From NCBI GenBank assembly GCA_947471985.1, contig CANIZL010000066.1, positions 1-37,833 on the forward strand: DNA of 37,833 nucleotides, written 5' to 3'. This stretch comes from Verrucomicrobiota bacterium. GTDB lineage: Bacteria; Verrucomicrobiota; Verrucomicrobiia; Limisphaerales; UBA9464. The notes under the pieces were generated by a model. The model made no database searches, was not told the DNA's origin, and saw only the letters and a list, made by a program, of their open reading frames with translations. Position numbers and translations under genes: made by a program. Positions 12,216 through 37,833 of the stretch are shown piece by piece (within the stretch, counting starts at the first letter, position 1; each line of letters opens with the position of its first letter).

Positions 12216-12608
12216 ATGAGCACCAAATTGTTCGTCGGTAACTTGTCGTTTAACACCACGCAGAATCAGATCCAGGACGCCTTTTCGGCTCATGGCGTCG
12301 TCGTGGAAGCCACCCTCATGCTCGACCGGGAAACCGGCCGGTCCCGCGGGTTTGCATTCGTCACCATGGATACCCCGGAATCCGCCCAGGCGGCGATTCA
12401 GGCCATGAGCGGCGCTCAACTGGACGGTCGCGCTTTGACCGTCAATGAAGCGAAACCCCGCGAAGAGCGTCCGCGCTCCGGCGGCGGCGGCGGTGGCGGT
12501 AGCCGCGGCGGCTACGGTGGTGGCGGCGGCGGCGGCGGCGGCGGTCGCGGTGGTGACCGTGGTGGTCGCGGCGGCTACGGCGGCGGCGGCGGTGGTGGCC
12601 GTTACTAA
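12216..12608 (+). CDS. Glycine-rich RRM RNA-binding protein
   Basis: Protein of 130 residues. A single RNA recognition motif fills residues 1-80: RNP2 is KLFVGNLSF (4-12) and RNP1 is RSRGFAFV (42-49), with the aromatic residues that stack on RNA bases. The tail from about residue 87 is almost pure glycine with RGG and GGYGG units, like eukaryotic and cyanobacterial cold-inducible Gly-rich RNA-binding proteins. Such proteins act as RNA chaperones; cold or stress induction here is inferred from the family. There is no Shine-Dalgarno before the ATG (the upstream bases are AT-rich TAGTGAAATAAA). A strong terminator follows, so the gene is probably monocistronic. Confidence 0.92.
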   Translation: MSTKLFVGNLSFNTTQNQIQDAFSAHGVVVEATLMLDRETGRSRGFAFVTMDTPESAQAAIQAMSGAQLDGRALTVNEAKPREERPRSGGGGGGGSRGGYGGGGGGGGGGRGGDRGGRGGYGGGGGGGRY

Positions 12609-14434: not shown

Positions 14435-16249
14435 TTAAACGCCACCGAGCAACTGAGCCACGGGCGCGTAGGGGATCACGGACGGTGATCCAACGAGCAC
14501 CAGACCCCGACGACGCGGAGCGCCATCGCGTTCCTTGGGCGCACGTTCCACACGTTCGGCCTTGGGCGGACGTTCGCCGGCTTTCGGTTCAGCTTTGCCG
14601 CCTTCGGGACGCGGTTGCGGCTTCTTGGCCAGTTCCATCTTGCCGTTCGCGAACTCAATCACGTGACCCTGGTGCAGCAACCAGTAAAGGTCGCTCAGGG
14701 CGGATTCACGTTCGGGGGTCGACACCGGGGACGGCGCGGGCGCAGTGGGCGCCGCCGCAACCGTCGGTTCCGCGCCGGGCACGACTTCCGCCGCCGCCAC
14801 GGGCGCGCTCACCGGAATCACAGCGGGCGCCGGCAACGGGGCCAGCGCGTCCAACAGACTGCGACGCGTCGCGGCCGGATGAGCCTCCAGGTGCGCAATG
14901 ATCTGCTTCACGCCGTCACTGACCACCTGGGTGGTCAGATCCAGATAATGCGGCCGGGCCACGGAAACGTGGACGACCGTCTTATCGCGCTTGAAGAAAT
15001 GCAGACCGCTCTTTTGGAACTCATTGCTGAGCTCCGTCGCGCAGCGCAACGGAAACCGCTTCTCGCGGTCGGTCATCACCCGCAGCAGGGCCTGAATCGG
15101 TCCATCCAGCTTCGGCGAGGTGCCGTGCTTGATCAGGATGCGGTCCACGCACTTGATGACATTGCCCTGATGCGTCTGCCGGAAATGGGCTTCGACATCA
15201 TCCCGGCTGTGCAGCTGGGTCGGCTCCGGCACATTGAGCGTGCCGAAGATGTACTTGAAGCTGGCCTGCTCCAGCCACTGTTTCACGATGGCTTCGTCCT
15301 TGACCACCTTGACCCGCGCCTTGTAGGCCTCGAAGGGCATGCGGTTGAAACGTTCCGCGTGCAACTTCCGCAGTTTGTCCTGCGAGCTCTGCAGATTCGG
15401 GGGGCCAAACAGCTCACCCGAAATCCCGCATTGCGCCACCAGCGTATAGGTGCCCTTCGGCGGTTCCGTCGCCACCTTCTCGGTGGTGTAGAACGTCTCA
15501 AAATGAACGGTCAGCACATGCTTGACCGCCGCCGCTTCACTGACCCAGATGGAGTCATCCAGCGAGCAAACATACAGGGGCGCCTGCGGCTTGCCGTCTT
15601 TGCCGTGAATCGTGCGCAGACCAACGTCGTAACGCTCGGGCTTCTGAGCCACCAGGCCCGCGACCTCGAAGAGCGGATACGCGCGGCCGGAAAGCCGAAT
15701 CTGTTTGGCGAGGGACGCCACGCCACCGGGTTCCGGAAGGAAATCAACTTCCAAGGGAACCAGCGGATCGCGATCCCGGTCGTCGAAACGCCGCGGACCC
15801 CGGTCCCGGCGCGGATCCGCCGAGGGATCCCAGTTCAAGCCGGTACCGTCGCCGGTCGGAGCCGGACCACCCGGACGGGGGCCACGACCACCGAAGCCGC
15901 CGCCACCCGGACGGGGGCCACCAAAGCCGCCGCCGCCCGGACGGGGACCGCCGAAGCCGCCACCGCCACCACCGGGTCGCGGTCCACCGAAGCCACCACC
16001 CGCGGGCCGTGGGCCGCCAAAGCCGCCACCGCCACCTCCCGGTCGCGGTCCGCCAAAGCCACCCCCGGGACGGGAGCCGCCACCAAATCCCCCACCAGGA
16101 CCGCCGCGTCCGCGGCCGCCCCCGCCTTCGCGGTCACGAGGTCCGGAATCCCGGCCCTCATAGTTGGCATACTTGTTTTCTTCCGCGGGCTTTTGGGCCC
16201 ACGAGGGCTGGAAGGCCTTCTCAAGGTCCAGCTTCAATTCATCGCTCAT
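14435..16249 (-). CDS. FGG/RGG-repeat protein of unknown function
   Basis: Protein of 604 residues with three parts. Residues 1-40 are a short acidic/basic head (SDELKLDLEKAFQPSW). Residues 41-129 are low complexity, built from repeated FGGPRPGGG units (six FGG occurrences) plus RGG-like elements, very like the Gly/Arg-rich tails of RNA-binding proteins. Residues 150-450 are folded and contain several helix-rich modules, for example VEAHFRQTHQGNVIKCVDRI and RFPLRCATELSNEFQKSG. A Pro/Ala linker follows, then a small helix-strand module (SALSDLYWLLHQGHVIEFAN) that looks winged-helix-like, and a Lys/Arg/Glu tail. I recognise no named family; it may be restricted to Verrucomicrobiota relatives. 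RNA or DNA binding is an inference from composition only. A hairpin with a U-run lies just before the start codon. Confidence 0.8.
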   Translation of the reverse strand: MSDELKLDLEKAFQPSWAQKPAEENKYANYEGRDSGPRDREGGGGRGRGGPGGGFGGGSRPGGGFGGPRPGGGGGGFGGPRPAGGGFGGPRPGGGGGGFGGPRPGGGGFGGPRPGGGGFGGRGPRPGGPAPTGDGTGLNWDPSADPRRDRGPRRFDDRDRDPLVPLEVDFLPEPGGVASLAKQIRLSGRAYPLFEVAGLVAQKPERYDVGLRTIHGKDGKPQAPLYVCSLDDSIWVSEAAAVKHVLTVHFETFYTTEKVATEPPKGTYTLVAQCGISGELFGPPNLQSSQDKLRKLHAERFNRMPFEAYKARVKVVKDEAIVKQWLEQASFKYIFGTLNVPEPTQLHSRDDVEAHFRQTHQGNVIKCVDRILIKHGTSPKLDGPIQALLRVMTDREKRFPLRCATELSNEFQKSGLHFFKRDKTVVHVSVARPHYLDLTTQVVSDGVKQIIAHLEAHPAATRRSLLDALAPLPAPAVIPVSAPVAAAEVVPGAEPTVAAAPTAPAPSPVSTPERESALSDLYWLLHQGHVIEFANGKMELAKKPQPRPEGGKAEPKAGERPPKAERVERAPKERDGAPRRRGLVLVGSPSVIPYAPVAQLLGGV

Positions 16250-31254: not shown

Positions 31255-31412
31255 GCGGCCACGTCGCCGCCAGCAAAACCGGCGCATCGAACTCGCCCGC
31301 AGCGCTGCCAATCAGCGGATATTTGGGCAGGCGGTGTTCTGGGAACCCTGCTGAACTGAAGAAATGCTGGGGGGAAATAGCGGGCGAATTCCCCTGGGAA
31401 AAACATTGCCGT

Positions 31413-31446
31413 GGGCGGGTCGCCCCGTAGTTTCCCGCCCGGTTTT
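31413..31446 (+). terminator. Possible terminator of metG, just before tRNA-Gln
   Basis: GGGCGGG (31413-31419) pairs with CCCGCCC (31434-31440) across a 14-base loop and is followed by GGTTTT, whose last T is the first base of the tRNA. The long loop and the shared T-run make this weak. Confidence 0.35.
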
Positions 31447-31519
31447 GGCCGATGGTGTAATGGTAACACAGGGGTCTTTGGAGCCCTTATTCATGGTTCG
31501 AATCCATGTCGGCCAGCCA
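31446..31519 (+). tRNA. tRNA-Gln (anticodon TTG), CCA encoded
   Basis: Complete cloverleaf. The acceptor TGGCCGA/TCGGCCA pairs over 7 bp, the D-stem is GTGT/ACAC, the anticodon stem is GGGGT/GCCCT, and loop CTTTGGA gives anticodon TTG (31478-31480). The T-stem CATGG/CCATG closes loop TTCGAAT. The discriminator G at 31516 is followed by an encoded CCA (31517-31519). A tyrosine recombinase gene starts 92 bases downstream, so the 3' half (around TTCGAATCCATGTCGGCCA) is the likely integration target of the element that follows. The second copy of that target is not visible in the window. Confidence 0.95.
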
Positions 31520-31553
31520 ACAAACCCCAGGAAAAACGACAATTTCCATTTCC

Positions 31554-31572
31554 TGACACAGTTTTGACACAG
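31554..31572 (+). repeat. Two direct TGACACAG repeats before the recombinase gene
   Basis: TGACACAG occurs at 31554-31561 and 31565-31572, an 11-base period, between the tRNA CCA end and the recombinase start. Short direct repeats near attL can be arm-binding sites for tyrosine recombinases; here this is only a suggestion. Confidence 0.45.
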
Positions 31573-31611
31573 AATTCGGCATCGAATTCCCTCGAAATTG
31601 CCCCCGCCGAA

Positions 31612-32907
31612 ATGAAATGGCCCTACAAGGTTCGGCATCGGAAGAACGGTCCCGTCCTCGCCAAAGTCTACCGCCCGGGAGAAGGCCGCCCCTCCTATCG
31701 GGTCGCCTGGAGGGCAGGTGGCAAACGGATGATGAAATCGTTTCCCAGCTTTGCCGGTCCGCTGGGCGCGCGGGTCTTCGCGGAGAACCTGGCCCGGGAA
31801 GCTGCTCACGGATCCCAGGTGGCCGCTCTCTCCGCGACGGAAGCGACCACAGCCCTCGCCATCCGGGATGCCTTGGATCACTTTCGTCGGGAAACCGGCC
31901 GCACGGTGTCTGCGGTGACCGCTGTGACCGAATACCTGGACGCCGCCCGCAAACTGGCCGGCCGGCCGCTGGCGGAAGCGGTCGCGGGCTATCTGGGAAC
32001 GGTCGTCACCGTGCGGCTAGTGGATCTGGGAGTTGCCATCAACGAATTCCTGGCCAGCCAGAAGGCCAAGACCCAGGCCGCGGAGGGCAAACGCTCGCAG
32101 CTTTCCCCGGACTACGCCTACATGTGTGGGCACTTCCTCGGTAACTTCGCCAAAATGTTCCCCGGCCTCGCCCTGCGGGATTTGACGAAGGATCAACTGG
32201 ACCTGTTCTTCGCAGCCAAGCGGCGAGCCGAACTTGCCCCGAAATCACGCAACCATTACCGAGCCAGCCTCAAGCAGTTTCTCAAATGGGCGGTCAAAAA
32301 GGATTACCTTCCCGCCAATCATCGTCTGCTCGAAGCCCCCAGCATGGAGCGCGAGACATTGACCGGCGGCGAGACCGGCTTCTACCGCCCTGAAGAGCTG
32401 CGCCAGTTGCTGGATGCCGCGGACGATGAACTTCGTCCCATCATCGCCTTGTGCGGGCTCGCTGGCCTCCGGGTGCAGGAAGCGCTGCGCCTCACGTGGA
32501 CGGATGTCTTCCGGGTAGAAGACCACATCGAAATGCTGGCCAGCAAATCCAAGACGCGCAGCCGTCGCTTGGTTGACACGGTCCCCGCGCTGGCGGCCTG
32601 GCTGGCACCCCGCCGGCACCTCAAAGGCCCCCTATGGACCGCCAAGTCGACCCAGTACATCCACCGATTTACTGAGCTCCGGAAATCCCTGAAGATCCCC
32701 TCTCGCAAGAACGGCCTTCGACATGCCTTCTGCACGTACCATTTCGCCCTCCATGACAACGAGAACCTGACCGCCAAGCAGGCAGGCAACTCTCCGGCTA
32801 TGATCCACCAGCACTACAAAGGTCTGGCTACGAAACGGGAGGCTCAGGCGTGGTTTGACGTCCGTCCGATCCGTGCGGAAAACGTCGTTGCCTTTCCGGC
32901 GTCATGA
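31612..32907 (+). CDS. Tyrosine recombinase / integrase
   Basis: Site-specific recombinase of 431 residues. Residues 1-130 form an N-terminal part with a basic start (KWPYKVRHRKNGPVLAKV), possibly arm-binding. The core-binding helical domain is about 145-250, and the catalytic domain about 260-410. Catalytic residues: R287 in AGLRVQEALRL, lysine K312 or K314 in ASKSKTRSRR, R370 in NGLRHAF, and the nucleophile Y402 in HQHYKG. Both usual active-site histidines are asparagines (N367 in the HxxR box, N393 in GNSP where GH is usual), which I believe is a trait of a Verrucomicrobia-type subgroup. The ATG at 31612 is chosen because the longer frame would run through the tRNA. Its stop overlaps the next gene's start (ATGA). 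Confidence 0.92.
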   Translation: MKWPYKVRHRKNGPVLAKVYRPGEGRPSYRVAWRAGGKRMMKSFPSFAGPLGARVFAENLAREAAHGSQVAALSATEATTALAIRDALDHFRRETGRTVSAVTAVTEYLDAARKLAGRPLAEAVAGYLGTVVTVRLVDLGVAINEFLASQKAKTQAAEGKRSQLSPDYAYMCGHFLGNFAKMFPGLALRDLTKDQLDLFFAAKRRAELAPKSRNHYRASLKQFLKWAVKKDYLPANHRLLEAPSMERETLTGGETGFYRPEELRQLLDAADDELRPIIALCGLAGLRVQEALRLTWTDVFRVEDHIEMLASKSKTRSRRLVDTVPALAAWLAPRRHLKGPLWTAKSTQYIHRFTELRKSLKIPSRKNGLRHAFCTYHFALHDNENLTAKQAGNSPAMIHQHYKGLATKREAQAWFDVRPIRAENVVAFPAS

Positions 32908-34190
32908 ATCCACCCAAGATCCAATGGAGTCCCTGGCCCGAATCCACCGATGACCCGGTGCCGCCCCCGAGGACCTACAGCTACATTGGGGTTACCCAGC
33001 AAGGTGCCGGCATTTACGTTCGGAACGAGGCCGGAGAACGACGGATTCTTCGGCTTCTGTGGCCTTCGCAAATCACGCCCACTGTCGGGCTCAGCTACCT
33101 TCGGTCACCGTGGCCGGACAACTCGGCACCCAAAGCGATTCACCGGACCTTGCTGAAGGAACCCGAATGCATCGCGGCCGACAGCGATCCCGCCGACCAC
33201 CTCTTCCCAATCCATTCGCCATGGGGACGACGCGGTCCGTTGATTTTGAAGCGGGACGCCAAATCCGACCAGCCAGAACTGGCCAAGCGACTCGCGGAGT
33301 ACCAACAATCCTGTCGCAAGGAATACAAAGTCGCGGAAAGAAAGCTTCTCCGGCAATCGAGCAAACTTCCAAAAGCTCAACTCGCCCACCAAAAGCTCCA
33401 ACTAACTGACAAGTTCACAACGATTTGCCCACATCGGAGTGTTTCGGGTCGAAGTGCCGCGGTATCGATTTTCGACGTCAACATCGGTGATGTTCAGCAT
33501 GGGGCCTTGGGGATTTGGGATGGGTTACTTCGACAGCGATTCTCTGACACATTCGGCATCGACCGATCCCGGATGGAGGTTGACCAAGAGGAATTCCGCC
33601 ACTGGCTTCTGGGCAAAGTCGCCCTCACTGAGGCTGAGGGAAACCTGGGCTCGCAGACGCTACCTCTGGACGTCTGGCAACCGGCTCGCAGCATTCTCTC
33701 CTACGCCGTCCGGTACGAAATCCAGTTCACCGACGGCAACCGTGCCTGGCTCGACCACGTTGAGGAAACCCAGCTTCAGAGTGGGCAAGAAGTGGCCGAG
33801 TTCGAACAATTGGACCAAGCGCTACGGCTGAGCCCGGAGGCTCCTTGGTACGCGAAAGGGTTCCGTGGAATCTTTGGCATCCACCAGCCGGGACTGGGAT
33901 CGAAAACGTTGCCCCTGAGTAATGAGTTGCGCGCTTTGTGCATAATTCTCAATGAATCCGGCGGTCCTGTTTCGTTTTCGACAATCGAGCAGCAAATTGG
34001 GGACCGCATCCATTCTCTCGACAAAGAGGATGGTCAAGGGGTCATGGCATCGCCGCCGCACCGGCGGCGCGTTCGTGATCTGCTTGATACGAAGACGGGT
34101 AAGAGACTTCTCGAATCAGGCGTTCTGACCTTGACAACGATGGGCCGCGAAAAGTATCTGGAACTTCACGCGCCAAAGCAGGCGAAGTAA
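32904..34190 (+). CDS. Unknown protein translationally coupled to the recombinase
   Basis: Protein of 428 residues whose ATG overlaps the recombinase stop by four bases (ATGA, 32904-32907), so the pair is probably co-translated. It has no signal peptide, membrane segment or cysteine cluster. Features: Pro/Trp-rich start (KIQWSPWPESTDDPVPPPRT), strand-like YSYIGVTQQGAGIYVRN, a basic helical segment near residues 130-170 (KEYKVAERKLLRQSSKLPKA), and a C-terminal part (SNELRALCIILNESGGPVS, then RDLLDTKTGKRLLESGVLTL) that looks winged-helix-like. Base composition is less GC-rich than in the housekeeping genes. I recognise no family. Possibilities are a recombination directionality or accessory factor, a regulator, or cargo; none is demonstrated. 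Confidence 0.7.
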   Translation: MNPPKIQWSPWPESTDDPVPPPRTYSYIGVTQQGAGIYVRNEAGERRILRLLWPSQITPTVGLSYLRSPWPDNSAPKAIHRTLLKEPECIAADSDPADHLFPIHSPWGRRGPLILKRDAKSDQPELAKRLAEYQQSCRKEYKVAERKLLRQSSKLPKAQLAHQKLQLTDKFTTICPHRSVSGRSAAVSIFDVNIGDVQHGALGIWDGLLRQRFSDTFGIDRSRMEVDQEEFRHWLLGKVALTEAEGNLGSQTLPLDVWQPARSILSYAVRYEIQFTDGNRAWLDHVEETQLQSGQEVAEFEQLDQALRLSPEAPWYAKGFRGIFGIHQPGLGSKTLPLSNELRALCIILNESGGPVSFSTIEQQIGDRIHSLDKEDGQGVMASPPHRRRVRDLLDTKTGKRLLESGVLTLTTMGREKYLELHAPKQAK

Positions 34191-34204
34191 TTCGGCGGTG
34201 TCCC

Positions 34205-34248
34205 CGCGCCTTTCCCGCGCCTTTCCCGCGCCTTTCCCGCGCCTTTCC
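34205..34248 (+). repeat. Four perfect 11-bp tandem repeats
   Basis: CGCGCCTTTCC is repeated four times without change (34205-34215, 34216-34226, 34227-34237, 34238-34248), directly after the unknown gene. A fifth degenerate unit (GCTCCTGCGCC) follows. It is a short minisatellite; a binding site or slippage product is possible. Confidence 0.9.
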
Positions 34249-34400
34249 GCTCCTGCGCCTACGGCGGTACGGTCTAGTTGCTGTTGCGTAATGCAACTAC
34301 CAGCAATTGGGGCACAAAGCGCCCCACATACAGAGTCAGTCTTGACAAAAAGCCTGACGCATGAACCGCAACCCCTAGCGCCGGCCTTCCTCGATTTCCG

Positions 34401-34423
34401 GTGTCCCTTCGGCAAGCGTGCGG
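34401..34423 (+). repeat. IS66 left terminal inverted repeat
   Basis: Begins GTGTCCCTTCGGCAAGCG and continues TGCGG. It matches the reverse complement of the right end at 22 of 23 positions; the only difference is G versus A at position 18. Confidence 0.95.
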
Positions 34424-34476
34424 AGCTGCTTGAAAGCCCCGGGGCGAGGGCCTGAACGGGGCTTGTGGCCGCGAAA

Positions 34477-36057
34477 TCAGCTAGGCGGCGAGGTTTGGGC
34501 GGCGGCGAGGGTCTCCTGGTAGTTCCAGGGCAGCCAACGGCCCGGGTCCGCTTTGACGGCGGGCTGATGCTTGACCACCGCGACGAGGTACTCGAAGGGA
34601 TTGATCCGGTTGGCCACGCAGGTCTGGATGATACTCATGAAAGCATCCCCAACCTCCGCTCCGCGGGCGCTGCGATAGGACAGGCTGTTCTTCCGGTGTT
34701 GGATCGCGGTCTTTAACAGTCTTTCGGTGACGTTATTGTCAAGCGGAGCCCCGGCCACCACCAGAAAACGCGTCAGTGCCTCCCAGCGATCGAGCATATA
34801 TTTGATGGCCTTACCCAGGCCTGAGTTGGGCTCGACTTTCTTCTTCTCCAACTGCGTGGTGAAGGACTTCTTGAGCCGCTCCATTGCCGGCCCGCTTTCG
34901 GCTTGGTGCAACTTCAGACGGGCTTCCGGATCGAGTCCCTGGTCCCGGCACCGCGCTTCCACCTGGTAGATCTCGGCGAAGCTCGCCAACACCGCCTGGC
35001 ATTCCTCGGGAAAGGCGCCCGTGATATCGACAAAGTTACGTCGCGCGTGGATGTTGCATTTGCAGGGCTGGGTCGGGTGGCCCTTGGGTTCATTGCAGGG
35101 CAACCCATCGGACATGTGGAGCGGTGCCGCTAACCCCGCCTCGCGTTCGGCTAACACGCGGGCGAGGTTTTCCCCGGCATGTTTACGCCCGGTGAAGAAA
35201 AGTCGGATCGAATGCTCTCCGGCCTCACACACGATCCCGGTGGTGAAGATGCCGGTCCGCTCCGGATCCGTCTCGGCCTGGATCGCCCGTCGCAACGCCC
35301 CCACCCGCATGGTGGTGTCGTCGGTGTAGACCATGGCGGCCTGGGCCCCCAGGTAGATCAAGTGATCCACTACCGGACCCAACGCCTCGGCCGCCCGGTT
35401 CGCCTGCTCCCATTGAATCGACGACGGGAGGGGAACGCCCACGCTTTCCTGCAATCGTTCCAGACGGTAAAAGGGCATCCCACTGCCGTAGCGCAGGAGC
35501 CCCACCATGACGCCCACATTCACGTCGTACTTTTCCAACCCCACGCCGGCGGGCGTGGTTGCTGTGAACACGGTGCCACACCCATCACAGCGCAATCGTT
35601 CCATTTCATGGATCTCGGCGCCGACCGGTGGCTGAGCGCTGACCGTGACCGCGGTGGCGGGTTGCTTCTGACGCCGCAGTTTGCCTTTCCCACACCCCGG
35701 ACAACCGTCGCCGTGCTGGTGGGTGGGGTGCGGCACCGGCACGCGCACCGCTCCGGTATAGGTGTGTTGTCCGCGGCGGCCATGGCCCCGGCGTTTAGCC
35801 TTCCGGGTTGGTTCCTTGGGTGGCCCTCCGCAGACGTTGCGGCTGCTTTCGGTGGTGGCGCCAAAGACGAGTTGGCGCAGGCGCCCGATCGACATGCTTT
35901 TCTGTTCCAACAAGAGCAGCAACTCCGGCAGTAACTCCGTCATGGCCTGGACCCGTTCATAGTGGGGTGGCGGCAGACAACCACGGAGTTCGTCCAGAAA
36001 GGCCTGACGTTGCGCCTCGGACAACACCAGGGAGCGGAGTTGCTGCAGATCCGTCAT
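34477..36057 (-). CDS. tnpC: IS66 family transposase TnpC
   Basis: DDE transposase of 526 residues. An N-terminal helical, leucine-zipper-like part (LLPELLLLLEQKSMSIGRLR) is followed by the IS66 zinc-binding region with two CxxC pairs (C119/C122 and C157/C160). The catalytic acids are probably D246 or D247 in YTDDTTMRV, D317 in HMSDGLPCN and E445 in DNNVTERLLK, the family's conserved order. The C-terminal signature RKNSLSYRSARGAEVGDAF is typical. Full length, no frameshift. The ATG at 36057 overlaps the stop of the DruA-like gene by four bases (ATGA), so its translation is probably coupled to it; the longer ORF start at 36270 lies within that gene and is rejected. Confidence 0.95.
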   Translation of the reverse strand: MTDLQQLRSLVLSEAQRQAFLDELRGCLPPPHYERVQAMTELLPELLLLLEQKSMSIGRLRQLVFGATTESSRNVCGGPPKEPTRKAKRRGHGRRGQHTYTGAVRVPVPHPTHQHGDGCPGCGKGKLRRQKQPATAVTVSAQPPVGAEIHEMERLRCDGCGTVFTATTPAGVGLEKYDVNVGVMVGLLRYGSGMPFYRLERLQESVGVPLPSSIQWEQANRAAEALGPVVDHLIYLGAQAAMVYTDDTTMRVGALRRAIQAETDPERTGIFTTGIVCEAGEHSIRLFFTGRKHAGENLARVLAEREAGLAAPLHMSDGLPCNEPKGHPTQPCKCNIHARRNFVDITGAFPEECQAVLASFAEIYQVEARCRDQGLDPEARLKLHQAESGPAMERLKKSFTTQLEKKKVEPNSGLGKAIKYMLDRWEALTRFLVVAGAPLDNNVTERLLKTAIQHRKNSLSYRSARGAEVGDAFMSIIQTCVANRINPFEYLVAVVKHQPAVKADPGRWLPWNYQETLAAAQTSPPS

Positions 36058-36932
36058 GGGGCCAGGAGCTTCTGGCGAAACCCTTTGCCCAGCGGATAGA
36101 CCCAAAGTTCCTTGATGGAGGTTTGCGCTCCGGTCTTGGATTTGGTGCCCCGGCCCTCGGAACGGCCCAGGAGCTTCCAATTGGCGGCCCGGTAACACGT
36201 GCCCTTGAAACGTTCGGTGTCCACGAAGCTCTCCAATAGCTGAACCGGATGGTGGTAGAGTTCCTGCCAATCGGCACTGATCCGCCGGGCGATCCGGGCC
36301 AACAGGTGACTGGCCAGATGGGGCACCTGGACCCAGGGCAGGATGAGATACCGGCTGTTGTAGACGATGAGGTGCAGGTTATGGCGATAGGCGGCCATGG
36401 GCGCGCCGACGAGTTCATCCCGCAACTTCAATTTGAGCGGCGCCGAGCTCCAACCCAGACACGCCACCGGTCGCCCACCGGCGAGGACCAGATATTTAAG
36501 ATGTTCCCCCACCGGTCGGCTGTAGCCGAGGTAGTGGTGTTGCTTGAGCAATTGGCCAAAGAGCGCCTCCCCTTCGGTCCGGCGGACCAACTGAATCTCC
36601 AGCGCTCCCAGTGCGGCCAGGGAGCTGGTGATCGGGGTCTGATCCACCGCCGGCACCTCCCGGACGCGGCGGTGGAGGATGGCGTTATTGGCCAGCTTCC
36701 GTTTGGGTTCGGGCAATTGGATATGTCCTGCCCGATGGAGCCGGAGCATGAGGCTGCGACAAACCATGTCGCGCGGATGGCCGTTGGGTTGAACCCAGTT
36801 CCAGGCGGCACAAACCCGGACCGAGAGCCGGTAGCGGCTCAGCCCGGGGTTTTCCGCAATCAAACGCCGCAGAAACTCCACCTCCGCGGCGCGAATCTCC
36901 CGACCTCGAAAACTGAGCAATACGTCCGACAC
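36054..36932 (-). CDS. DUF4338/DruA-like protein carried inside IS66
   Basis: Protein of 292 residues of the DUF4338 family, the family of Druantia anti-phage protein DruA. Residues 1-75 form a helical, possibly DNA-binding head (FRGREIRAAEVEFLRRLIAE; YRLSVRVCAAWNWVQPNG). The domain proper runs from about 120: LLKQHHYLGYSRPVGEHLKY, GRPVACLGWSSAPLKLK, NLHLIVYNSRYLILPWV, LLARIARRISADWQELY, LLESFVDTERFKGTCYRAAN, TSIKELWVYPLGKGFRQ. GTG start at 36932. Just upstream, CCCCG (36951-36947) and CGGGG (36938-36934) can form a hairpin ending one base before it. It overlaps tnpC by ATGA and lies 63 bases after tnpB. The other Druantia genes are absent, so a defence role cannot be assumed; a role in transposition or target choice is equally possible. 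Confidence 0.8.
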   Translation of the reverse strand: MSDVLLSFRGREIRAAEVEFLRRLIAENPGLSRYRLSVRVCAAWNWVQPNGHPRDMVCRSLMLRLHRAGHIQLPEPKRKLANNAILHRRVREVPAVDQTPITSSLAALGALEIQLVRRTEGEALFGQLLKQHHYLGYSRPVGEHLKYLVLAGGRPVACLGWSSAPLKLKLRDELVGAPMAAYRHNLHLIVYNSRYLILPWVQVPHLASHLLARIARRISADWQELYHHPVQLLESFVDTERFKGTCYRAANWKLLGRSEGRGTKSKTGAQTSIKELWVYPLGKGFRQKLLAP

Positions 36933-36995
36933 GCCCCGCAGGATAACGGGGAAGGAATTGAACGCTAGGCTGGAGTTAAACTATTTTTACCGGGC

Positions 36996-37361
36996 TTATT
37001 TCGGCCCCGCGTTTACGGGTCGCCAGACCGGTGCCGTCTGGGTCTGGGTGGGATCTCCGTTCCACAGCAGGGTGTAGAGTTGATGCGTGGTCAGCGACTG
37101 CCGGGCCTCGGTGTCGGATCTGGGCCACGCCTTGAAGGATCCTTGCGAAAGTCGTTTTTGGCAGAGCCAAAAGCCCTGTGAATCATAGACGAGACACTTC
37201 ACGGCGCGCCGGCTCCGGCCACAGAACACGAACAGCGTGCCATCGAGCGGGTCGGATTGGAGGCTTTGGCGACAGAGCGCCGCGAGGCCATCGATGCCCC
37301 GACGAAAATCGACCGGTTCCACCGCCAGTAAAATCCGCATCTGCGGAGTGATCTGAATCAT
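36996..37361 (-). CDS. tnpB: IS66 accessory protein TnpB
   Basis: Protein of 121 residues with the IS66 Orf2 pattern: VEPVDFRRGIDGLAALCRQS, TLFVFCGRSRRAVKCLVYDS, GFWLCQKRLSQGSFKAW. TnpB is required for efficient transposition of IS66 elements, though its biochemical role is unclear; it is unrelated to the IS200/IS605 nuclease of the same name. The ATG at 37361 overlaps the stop of tnpA by four bases (ATGA). Length is normal. The C-terminal extension after WPRSD is rich in Thr/Gln. Confidence 0.94.
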   Translation of the reverse strand: MIQITPQMRILLAVEPVDFRRGIDGLAALCRQSLQSDPLDGTLFVFCGRSRRAVKCLVYDSQGFWLCQKRLSQGSFKAWPRSDTEARQSLTTHQLYTLLWNGDPTQTQTAPVWRPVNAGPK

Positions 37362-37771
37362 TGCGCCGTCCTCCAGAAGGACCGGGCCAAAGCCACCCAG
37401 GCGGCCGGATCATGACCAGTGTGCAGACGCATCCGGCGATCCGGCCCATCGCTCAGCTCCACCCATCCGCTGGTGCCGGTTGTCTCGTTCCCGGGCTGCG
37501 GGGGAACATCCAGCTTTAGTTCCACGAAGCGCTCCGACGCCGGCCTCGCCTCGGCCGACCCGGATAACTCCCGGGTGCAACGCTGCAACCGATAGAAATC
37601 GAGGCGCAAGCTGCGGGCCACTGCGCTCACTCCCAGAGTCCGGGCGAGCTCGGCGGCACCCTCCCAGAGTTCCTGTGGAAGACGGCCCCGACCGGTCTGC
37701 CGTCGTCGCCACGAATCCAGCTGGCGCTGCAGAACGCGGAGATCCGTCGAAGAAAATGTGAGTGGCTTCAT
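37358..37771 (-). CDS. tnpA: IS66 accessory protein TnpA
   Basis: Protein of 137 residues with an N-terminal helix-turn-helix-type segment typical of IS66 TnpA proteins: LDSWRRRQTGRGRLPQELWE, AAELARTLGVSAVARSLRL and DFYRLQRCTRELSG. The middle and C-terminal part (FVELKLDVPPQPG, MRLHTGHDPAAWVALARSFW) is the variable accessory region. First gene of the element, 40 bases inside the right inverted repeat. It is translationally coupled to tnpB by an ATGA overlap. Confidence 0.85.
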   Translation of the reverse strand: MKPLTFSSTDLRVLQRQLDSWRRRQTGRGRLPQELWEGAAELARTLGVSAVARSLRLDFYRLQRCTRELSGSAEARPASERFVELKLDVPPQPGNETTGTSGWVELSDGPDRRMRLHTGHDPAAWVALARSFWRTAQ

Positions 37772-37810
37772 TCCCGCCGCTCACCCTGCCAGCCACGCCC
37801 CTCTCACGTC

Positions 37811-37833
37811 CCGCATGCTTGCCGAAGGGACAC
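37811..37833 (-). repeat. IS66 right terminal inverted repeat (window edge)
   Basis: Plus strand reads CCGCATGCTTGCCGAAGGGA then CAC, the reverse complement of the left repeat with one mismatch. The last C of the window is the outer base of the element. Confidence 0.95.

Follow-up and report, generated by a model that had tools for sequence, protein, structure and literature searches.

Why should an insertion sequence carry, within its transposition operon, a gene of the DruA family, relatives of which serve in the phage-defence system Druantia? This question is raised by a stretch of 37,833 nucleotides from a Verrucomicrobiota bacterium (GenBank assembly GCA_947471985.1, contig CANIZL010000066.1), which represents a whole contig (G000:C66) and is called the window in the following. 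Its last 3,433 bases (34401-37833) form a complete element of the IS66 type. With somewhat more confidence than doubt, we regard it as a multi-copy insertion sequence whose transposition operon encodes a GNAT-fold enzyme similar to the DNA modification protein Mom of phage Mu, and which belongs to a DruA clade specific to transposons.

The element and its operon

Four open frames, all on the minus strand, are arranged in the operon order tnpA-tnpB-DruA-tnpC between two terminal inverted repeats:

34401..34423, plus strand: left terminal inverted repeat at the tnpC end, found by repeat search; identical end in contigs C8 and C84
34477..36057, minus strand: tnpC, IS66 DDE transposase, 526 amino acids (aa) (PF03050, E 2.8e-40; NCBIfam NF033517)
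36054..36932, minus strand: DruA-family gene, 292 aa, GTG start (PF14236; predicted helix-turn-helix (HTH)-like N-terminal helices and Mom-like GNAT domain)
36054..36057, minus strand: ATGA, overlap of the DruA stop and the tnpC start, from open frames and sequence
36996..37361, minus strand: tnpB, IS66 accessory protein (IS66 Orf2), 121 aa (PF05717, E 7.5e-30; NCBIfam NF033819)
37358..37771, minus strand: gene at the tnpA position, 137 aa, assigned by homologous frames at the equivalent place of loci L039, L041 and L058
37811..37833, minus strand: right terminal inverted repeat, its outer base being the contig end; identical end in C58, C74, C115, C134 and C160

The repeats comprise 23 nucleotides (nt) that are 96% complementary with one mismatch, and they are the top-listed of eight inverted pairs in 33500-37833. 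A 4-nt overlap exists also between tnpA and tnpB. The protein at the tnpA position has no match in Pfam, NCBIfam or PHROGs; its frame is 47-57% identical to the tnpA-position frames of L039, L041 and L058. A sequence-only reading of the window had proposed a single element with both inverted repeats and four genes on one strand, the extra gene belonging to the DUF4338/DruA family and, by its ATGA overlap with tnpC, to the transposition operon. All of this agrees with the repeats and open frames given above, and the window DruA scores above the cut-off of the Pfam family DruA, PF14236 (E 5.8e-31, 108.2 bits, cut-off 27; matched positions 3-225 of 297).

Exact matches to the 17-nt repeat end were found at seven further contig ends of the assembly, each beginning with 60 bases that are identical to the left or the right end of the element; with three mismatches allowed, 41 matches were obtained compared to 17 for the reversed pattern. 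The ends in C84 and C134 show a perfect 8-bp duplication, and for C8 and C160 seven of eight positions match. The recurrence of the ends at other contig ends, together with paired duplications, shows that several copies of the element exist, and its repeats are the reason why the contig stops where the element does. The duplications were seen at other copies, since the right flank of the window copy lies beyond the contig end. With the TnpC and TnpB profiles, the terminal inverted repeats and the 8-bp target duplication of the other copies, the element shows these features of the IS66 family; it shares the TnpB and TnpC families, gene order, repeats and duplications with canonical IS66 (tnpA, tnpB, tnpC), from which it differs by the additional gene between tnpB and tnpC. 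The assembly contains two IS66 transposase genes, and DruA adjoins both of them (2/2). In C74 and C115 (L009 and L011), two right element ends face one 8-bp target in opposite orientations, which would fit the insertion of a composite element or of two inverted copies.

The same arrangement is widespread. The DruA alignment was searched against a named genome collection, where most of the named relatives are metagenome-assembled genomes, and the best 80 of at least 542 confirmed candidates were analysed. This set was selected for similarity to IS66-type DruA and hence shows how firm the link between DruA and IS66 is, not how frequent DruA is in IS66. The 80 relatives are 49-76% identical to the window DruA and occur in Verrucomicrobiota, Acidobacteriota, Planctomycetota, several proteobacterial groups, Chloroflexota, Gemmatimonadota and others. 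The order tnpA-tnpB-DruA-tnpC on a single strand is found in 57 of them and tnpC stands beside DruA in 74. In nine cases DruA-tnpC faces tnpB-tnpA on the opposite strand (L101, L103, L105, L106, L120, L124, L127, L154, L163), and in eight tnpA and tnpB were not found next to DruA-tnpC. The tnpC gene was not found in 6/80, three of them near the downstream contig end. The DruA stop overlaps an in-frame tnpC start by 4 nt in 43 of the 74 tnpC-bearing loci, and a further 25 have an in-frame tnpC start at -40 to +80 from the DruA stop. Of 66 loci possessing tnpA, DruA and tnpC, 34 carry the repeat motif at both ends, compared to 1/66 for the reversed motif; this motif-anchored search superseded a free one (25/66 above shuffles, with one false match in a masked stretch). 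A perfect 8-bp duplication was present in 5 of 30 measurable loci, with 0 in the control. DruA thus holds its operon position with tnpB and tnpC in many phyla. The sequence-only reading had named a lacking PF14236 assignment or lacking IS66 neighbours elsewhere as outcomes that would speak against it and had called for a count of neighbours; the gene falls into PF14236, and tnpC adjoins it in the 74 loci mentioned.

The gene is also under purifying selection. The ratio of nonsynonymous to synonymous rates (dN/dS) of DruA was 0.12-0.23 in 14 pairs made of the window and five near relatives, values which are rough because dS exceeds 1 in 12 of the 14 pairs; one further pair was identical. In 58 elements, the pairwise distances of DruA correlate with those of TnpB (r 0.48, not reached in 2,000 permutations), while TnpB and TnpC give r 0.19 (reached in 14 of 2,000 permutations).

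Relation of DruA to Mom of phage Mu

The structure model of the window DruA, built with 64 sequences (mean predicted local distance difference test score 87.1, predicted template modelling score 0.77), comprises HTH-like helices at about 15-67 and a GNAT fold from about 105 to 292. DUF4338 has been noted as a GNAT domain in DndF fusions (PMC10853773). The best match of the model among 350,542 chains of the Protein Data Bank (PDB) is Mom of phage Mu, entry 8bv8 (Foldseek E 4e-7), which is also rank 1 by VIA (Z 14.0, root-mean-square deviation (rmsd) 4.0, 167 aligned), followed by human Naa60 (Z 12.9, rmsd 3.5, 165 aligned). In a comparison with viral models a named Mom appeared at rank 8. PDB sequence searches with DruA profiles gave nothing at E up to 1. 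Profile comparisons point in the same direction. With hhalign, the DruA profile matched seven Mom proteins at E 1.7e-9 (18 DruAs) and 1e-7 (64 DruAs). The sole PHROGs match of the window DruA is a Mom-like DNA modification protein (E 3.6e-5), and the only further Pfam family is Mom (PF25680), which stays below the cut-off both in the window (E 0.005) and in L231 (E 7.7e-6). Homology of the C-terminal domain to Mom is thus well supported by profiles and model.

The title of 8bv8 names the inactive mutant S124A; relative to Mu Mom AAF01131.2, the chain in this entry is changed at two positions, serine 114 and the first residue. In nine joint alignments of DruA and Mom (three sequence sets in three MAFFT modes, not independent of each other), H48, Y49, S114 and S136 of Mom fall on H133, Y134, S208 and S235 of DruA (H48, Y49 and S114 in 9/9), and D139, G146, Y149 and N153 on D238, G244, Y247 and N251 (D139 and Y149 in 9/9). 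Opposition of S208 and S114 was also obtained by hhalign with 64 DruAs. Among 58 transposon rows, H133 is found in 58, Y134 in 52 (P in 6), S208 in 56, S235 in 16 (T in 42), D238 in 47 (E in 11), G244 in 58, Y247 in 57 and N251 in 45. Mutation of the aligned serine inactivates Mom; catalytic roles of the other residues are putative.

Mom moves an acyl group from acyl-CoA (coenzyme A) onto N6 of adenine, as described in a review (PMC7824862), and shields Mu from restriction according to the abstract of PMC6483171. DruA and Mom share the GNAT fold, the profile similarity, aligned conserved residues, among them the serine that is replaced in 8bv8, and a transposing carrier. They differ in the additional N-terminal HTH-like part of the window DruA and in its position within a transposase operon, whereas Mu has Mom among its late genes, together with a dedicated translational activator, Com, according to the annotation.

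The fold would also suit an unlikely alternative, in which a GNAT of the transposon acetylates a protein, either the transposase or a host factor, and thereby tunes transposition. The protein acetyltransferases Naa60 and RimI stand structurally close behind Mom, but sequence profiles single out Mom, and the occurrence of a single domain with several transposase types (see below) suggests a common substrate such as DNA. Similarly improbable is an accessory protein that binds DNA and recognises ends or targets, with the GNAT domain as a non-catalytic scaffold. The HTH-like N-terminal helices and the fusions of DruA to transposases would fit such a protein; the near-invariant polar residues, however, match those of Mom, and fusions to ISAs1-type transposases keep the GNAT part and lack the N-terminal domain. 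For the N-terminal part itself no strong fold match was obtained (best Foldseek E 0.4; best VIA Z 5.2, rmsd 2.9, 56 aligned). Many of its VIA rows are winged-helix regulators, and its HTH-like nature is only a lead.

Other transposases and Druantia

The sequence-only reading had linked DruA to IS66. This link does recur, yet the domain is not special to IS66, since it occurs fused or adjacent to at least five further transposase types. Already the genome of the window contains a DruA domain fused to a Tn5/IS4-type transposase (C42) and another one fused to an ISAs1-type transposase (C75). Pfam DruA was sampled in four phyla, i.e. that of the window and those of G349 (Hydrogenophaga), G350 (Acidobacteriaceae) and G348 (Desulfoferrobacter), where 30/288, 17/398, 26/297 and 47/297 genomes, respectively, have a match; among relatives of the window genome 23/58 do. 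The cultured Desulfoferrobacter suflitae DRH4 has 13 DruA matches. A census of 158 DruA loci, which were non-randomly chosen as best matches, with some matches lacking a locus, comprised 38 with IS66, 61 with other transposases, 7 defence-type, 27 unassigned and 25 fragments or not found. Hence 99 of 106 loci with an assigned partner stand with transposases and 7 with defence-type partners, so that a match to Pfam DruA does not by itself point to a defence system. This tally gives too low a share for defence, because the 25 fragment or not-found loci include long Druantia-type proteins missed by the profile (L045, L202, L203, L209, L211, L212, L215). Moreover, 13 of the 158 loci come from the single genome G348, some genes are counted by two hits (L190/L191, L202/L212, L203/L211, L205/L213 and L209/L215, among others), L196 is tallied as IS66 and is by Pfam a pair of the Tn5 type (L220 has the same gene), and L284 and L291 are tallied as unassigned and by eye resemble the Pfam-identified L228 and L286. 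The partners are:

ISAs1-type: PF13808, by Pfam
Tn5-type: PF02281 and PF14706, by Pfam
PF13546: fused in L231, separate at L247, by Pfam
UPF0236: L219 by Pfam; L040, L057, L061 and L270 by strong profile matches
DUF772: L241, and L286 below cut-off, by Pfam
other PF01609 proteins: L208, L250, L251 and L253, by Pfam

UPF0236 is listed by Pfam as uncharacterised; we take it to be a transposase of the ISLre2 type. The clade of the window DruA is thus associated with several further transposase types, often within a single fused polypeptide. The fusions (ISAs1, Tn5, PF13546 and PF01609 types) have the DruA clade in common with the window element, whereas they are single polypeptides with other transposase families and the window element has two overlapping genes.

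Some loci of the census stand apart. In the sample of the G348 phylum, nine intact genes encode a DruA of about 300 aa (L174, L272, L273, L274, L276, L277, L278, L279, L282) and have no identified transposase within about 1.5 kb and no convincing repeats of their own; perhaps they are domesticated or orphan copies. When own inverted repeats were sought at 20 loci, including 15 DruA genes without identified transposase neighbour, 19 did not exceed 20 shuffles, and the score of L273 (12 compared to 11 in shuffles) was taken as chance. On plasmid pTs485 (L330, 3971-7173), a DUF4338 gene lies a short distance before genes for a site-specific integrase and a transposase of the IS91 family, which might represent a further type of partner.

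How, then, is the transposon DruA related to that of Druantia? In a tree of 73 hand-chosen DruA domains, one branch with support 100/100 separates 58/58 transposon rows from 15/15 Druantia-type rows; the latter comprise Druantia I, HerA-linked and Ssp-fused proteins, one protein next to TniQ-TniB-TniA, and five rows for which no defence partner was identified. On the transposon side, the labels IS66, ISAs1, DUF772 and PF13546 are partly mixed (19 label changes tree-wide, with a possible minimum of 11), and DruA therefore appears to have switched its partner several times. A tree rooted with seven Mom proteins, from which 10 of the 73 rows were dropped, has no usable root, as its first DruA forks are supported by 14/36 and 8/10; these weak early forks do not fix the direction of descent between Druantia and transposon DruA.

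The window DruA shares PF14236 and a partial alignment of the GNAT core (R171 15/15, G142 15/15) with Druantia-type DruA. The Druantia-type rows differ by W at H133 in 15/15 and G at S208 in 13 of 14 covered rows. The profile covers the later motif in none of these rows, and the five that are fully aligned show a different motif in a single alignment. The window protein did not match the PADLOC Druantia models (PDLC00001/PDLC00002) at E up to 0.1, and none of DruB-DruE is among the six window proteins scanned (31411-37771), the element consisting only of IS66 genes and DruA. The sequence-only reading had noted that Druantia partners are lacking, and none was found among these proteins. The gene is not the DruA of Druantia: the PADLOC models miss the protein, the clades are separate and the putative active sites differ. 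On the same grounds and for want of DruB-DruE partners, membership in Druantia was rejected. It is accordingly quite improbable that the gene represents cargo for phage defence like DruA of Druantia, although both belong to one Pfam family and a DruA is indeed part of Druantia type I (L217, together with DruD and DruE); against this stand the element without Druantia partner or PADLOC match, the separate clade and the different residues at the putative active site.

Druantia-type DruA was seen in further settings. In L218 (6694-11742) it lies right behind TniQ, TniB and a Mu-type, TniA-like transposase with two further genes, and judged from this gene content the locus is a DruA within a Tn5053-like operon. 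L216 (3414-7572) combines it with a 412-aa protein and a HerA-like ATPase, with related sets at L237 and L266. L221 (4304-8146), L222 and L230 encode long proteins with an N-terminal Druantia-type DruA, followed in L221 by SspF/DndF-like matches.

Possible role of DruA and further features of the window

A function in transposition or otherwise for the element, one of those offered by the sequence-only reading, fits best, most likely that of a Mom-like DNA-modifying enzyme. Catalytic activity of DruA on DNA is inferred by analogy: DNA is the likeliest substrate of a Mom-like domain, and a common DNA substrate would explain how one domain serves different transposases. The enzyme might use a donor of the acyl-CoA type and modify a DNA base, adenine if Mom is a guide. 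Coupling to tnpC and the fusions elsewhere would place it where the transposase acts. The modification would probably occur near the element ends or the target, because DruA is made with or fused to a transposase and may be held on DNA by its HTH-like domain. Such a mark could shield excised transposition intermediates or newly arrived element DNA from restriction, like Mom does for Mu. Alternatively, a mark on ends or targets could license or regulate transposition, and the fusions seem to favour a local role. More generally, the GNAT clade carrying the name DruA could be an accessory of transposons at large, consisting of DNA-base modifiers, encoded in the operons of several transposase types or fused to their transposases, that mark transposon or target DNA during transposition, with DruA of Druantia as a diverged relative with rebuilt active site; to this wider proposal we give slightly less than an even chance.

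Several observations weigh against a Mom-like enzyme that is part of the transposition machinery. The Pfam Mom scores of the window DruA (16.9 bits) and L231 (26.1 bits) remain below the cut-off of 27.1, and the lead of Mom over Naa60 is just above 1 in Z, so that the structural ranking alone is modest. The register of the serine differs between methods, since hhalign with 18 DruAs sets Mom S114 opposite P204, and in the joint alignments Mom R101 does not align with DruA R194. Distances of DruA and TnpC in the 58 elements correlate weakly (r 0.29, not reached in 2,000 permutations), and for 27 of the 158 census loci no partner was assigned within about 1.5 kb. Furthermore, among 32 IS66 transposase genes that cover at least 200 profile positions in the relatives of the window genome, 9 have DruA within 2.5 kb by coordinates, and no DruA was found within this distance of the other 23, of which one (L313) is accompanied by a partial DruA where its contig ends; an independent count gave a DruA frame in 6 of 31 transposase loci. 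IS66 can hence do without DruA. These 23 genes would also fit a neutral passenger with no role for the element, which is the least probable of the explanations considered here and hardly agrees with the fixed place and coupling across many phyla, the purifying selection and the repeated association with other transposases.

Bacterial transposons may thus bring their own DNA-marking enzyme. If true, many bacterial transposons would mark DNA as a built-in step, which the transposing phage Mu also does, and the clade would represent a large reservoir of candidate DNA-modifying enzymes. Transposon DruA has Mom-like residues that Druantia DruA lacks, and this difference opens the function of DruA to testing. 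Another case of a transposon-borne DNA-base-modifying enzyme is that of the fungal KDZ transposons carrying TET/JBP genes, which differs in that enzyme and host are unrelated. In the open-access literature searched, we found no description of DruA in IS66 or as a Mom-like enzyme of transposons. One DruA-ISAs1 fusion is labelled as ISAs1 family transposase by NCBI, i.e. the combined architecture is already visible in databases.

To the left of the element, a tRNA-Gln gene (31446-31519) is directly followed by a tyrosine-recombinase frame (to 32907), which a 428-aa frame (32904-34190) overlaps by 4 nt; the latter has no match in Pfam, NCBIfam, PADLOC or PHROGs. Perhaps 31446-34190 is the terminal part of an integrative element. 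The gap that separates the 428-aa frame from the IS66 element contains about four perfect copies of the 11-bp unit CCCGCGCCTTT, at 34203-34248. At 15886-16096, CCGCCACC-like units abound in imperfect tandem repeats of about 30-66 bp, and CGG runs are also present at 12479 and 26826.

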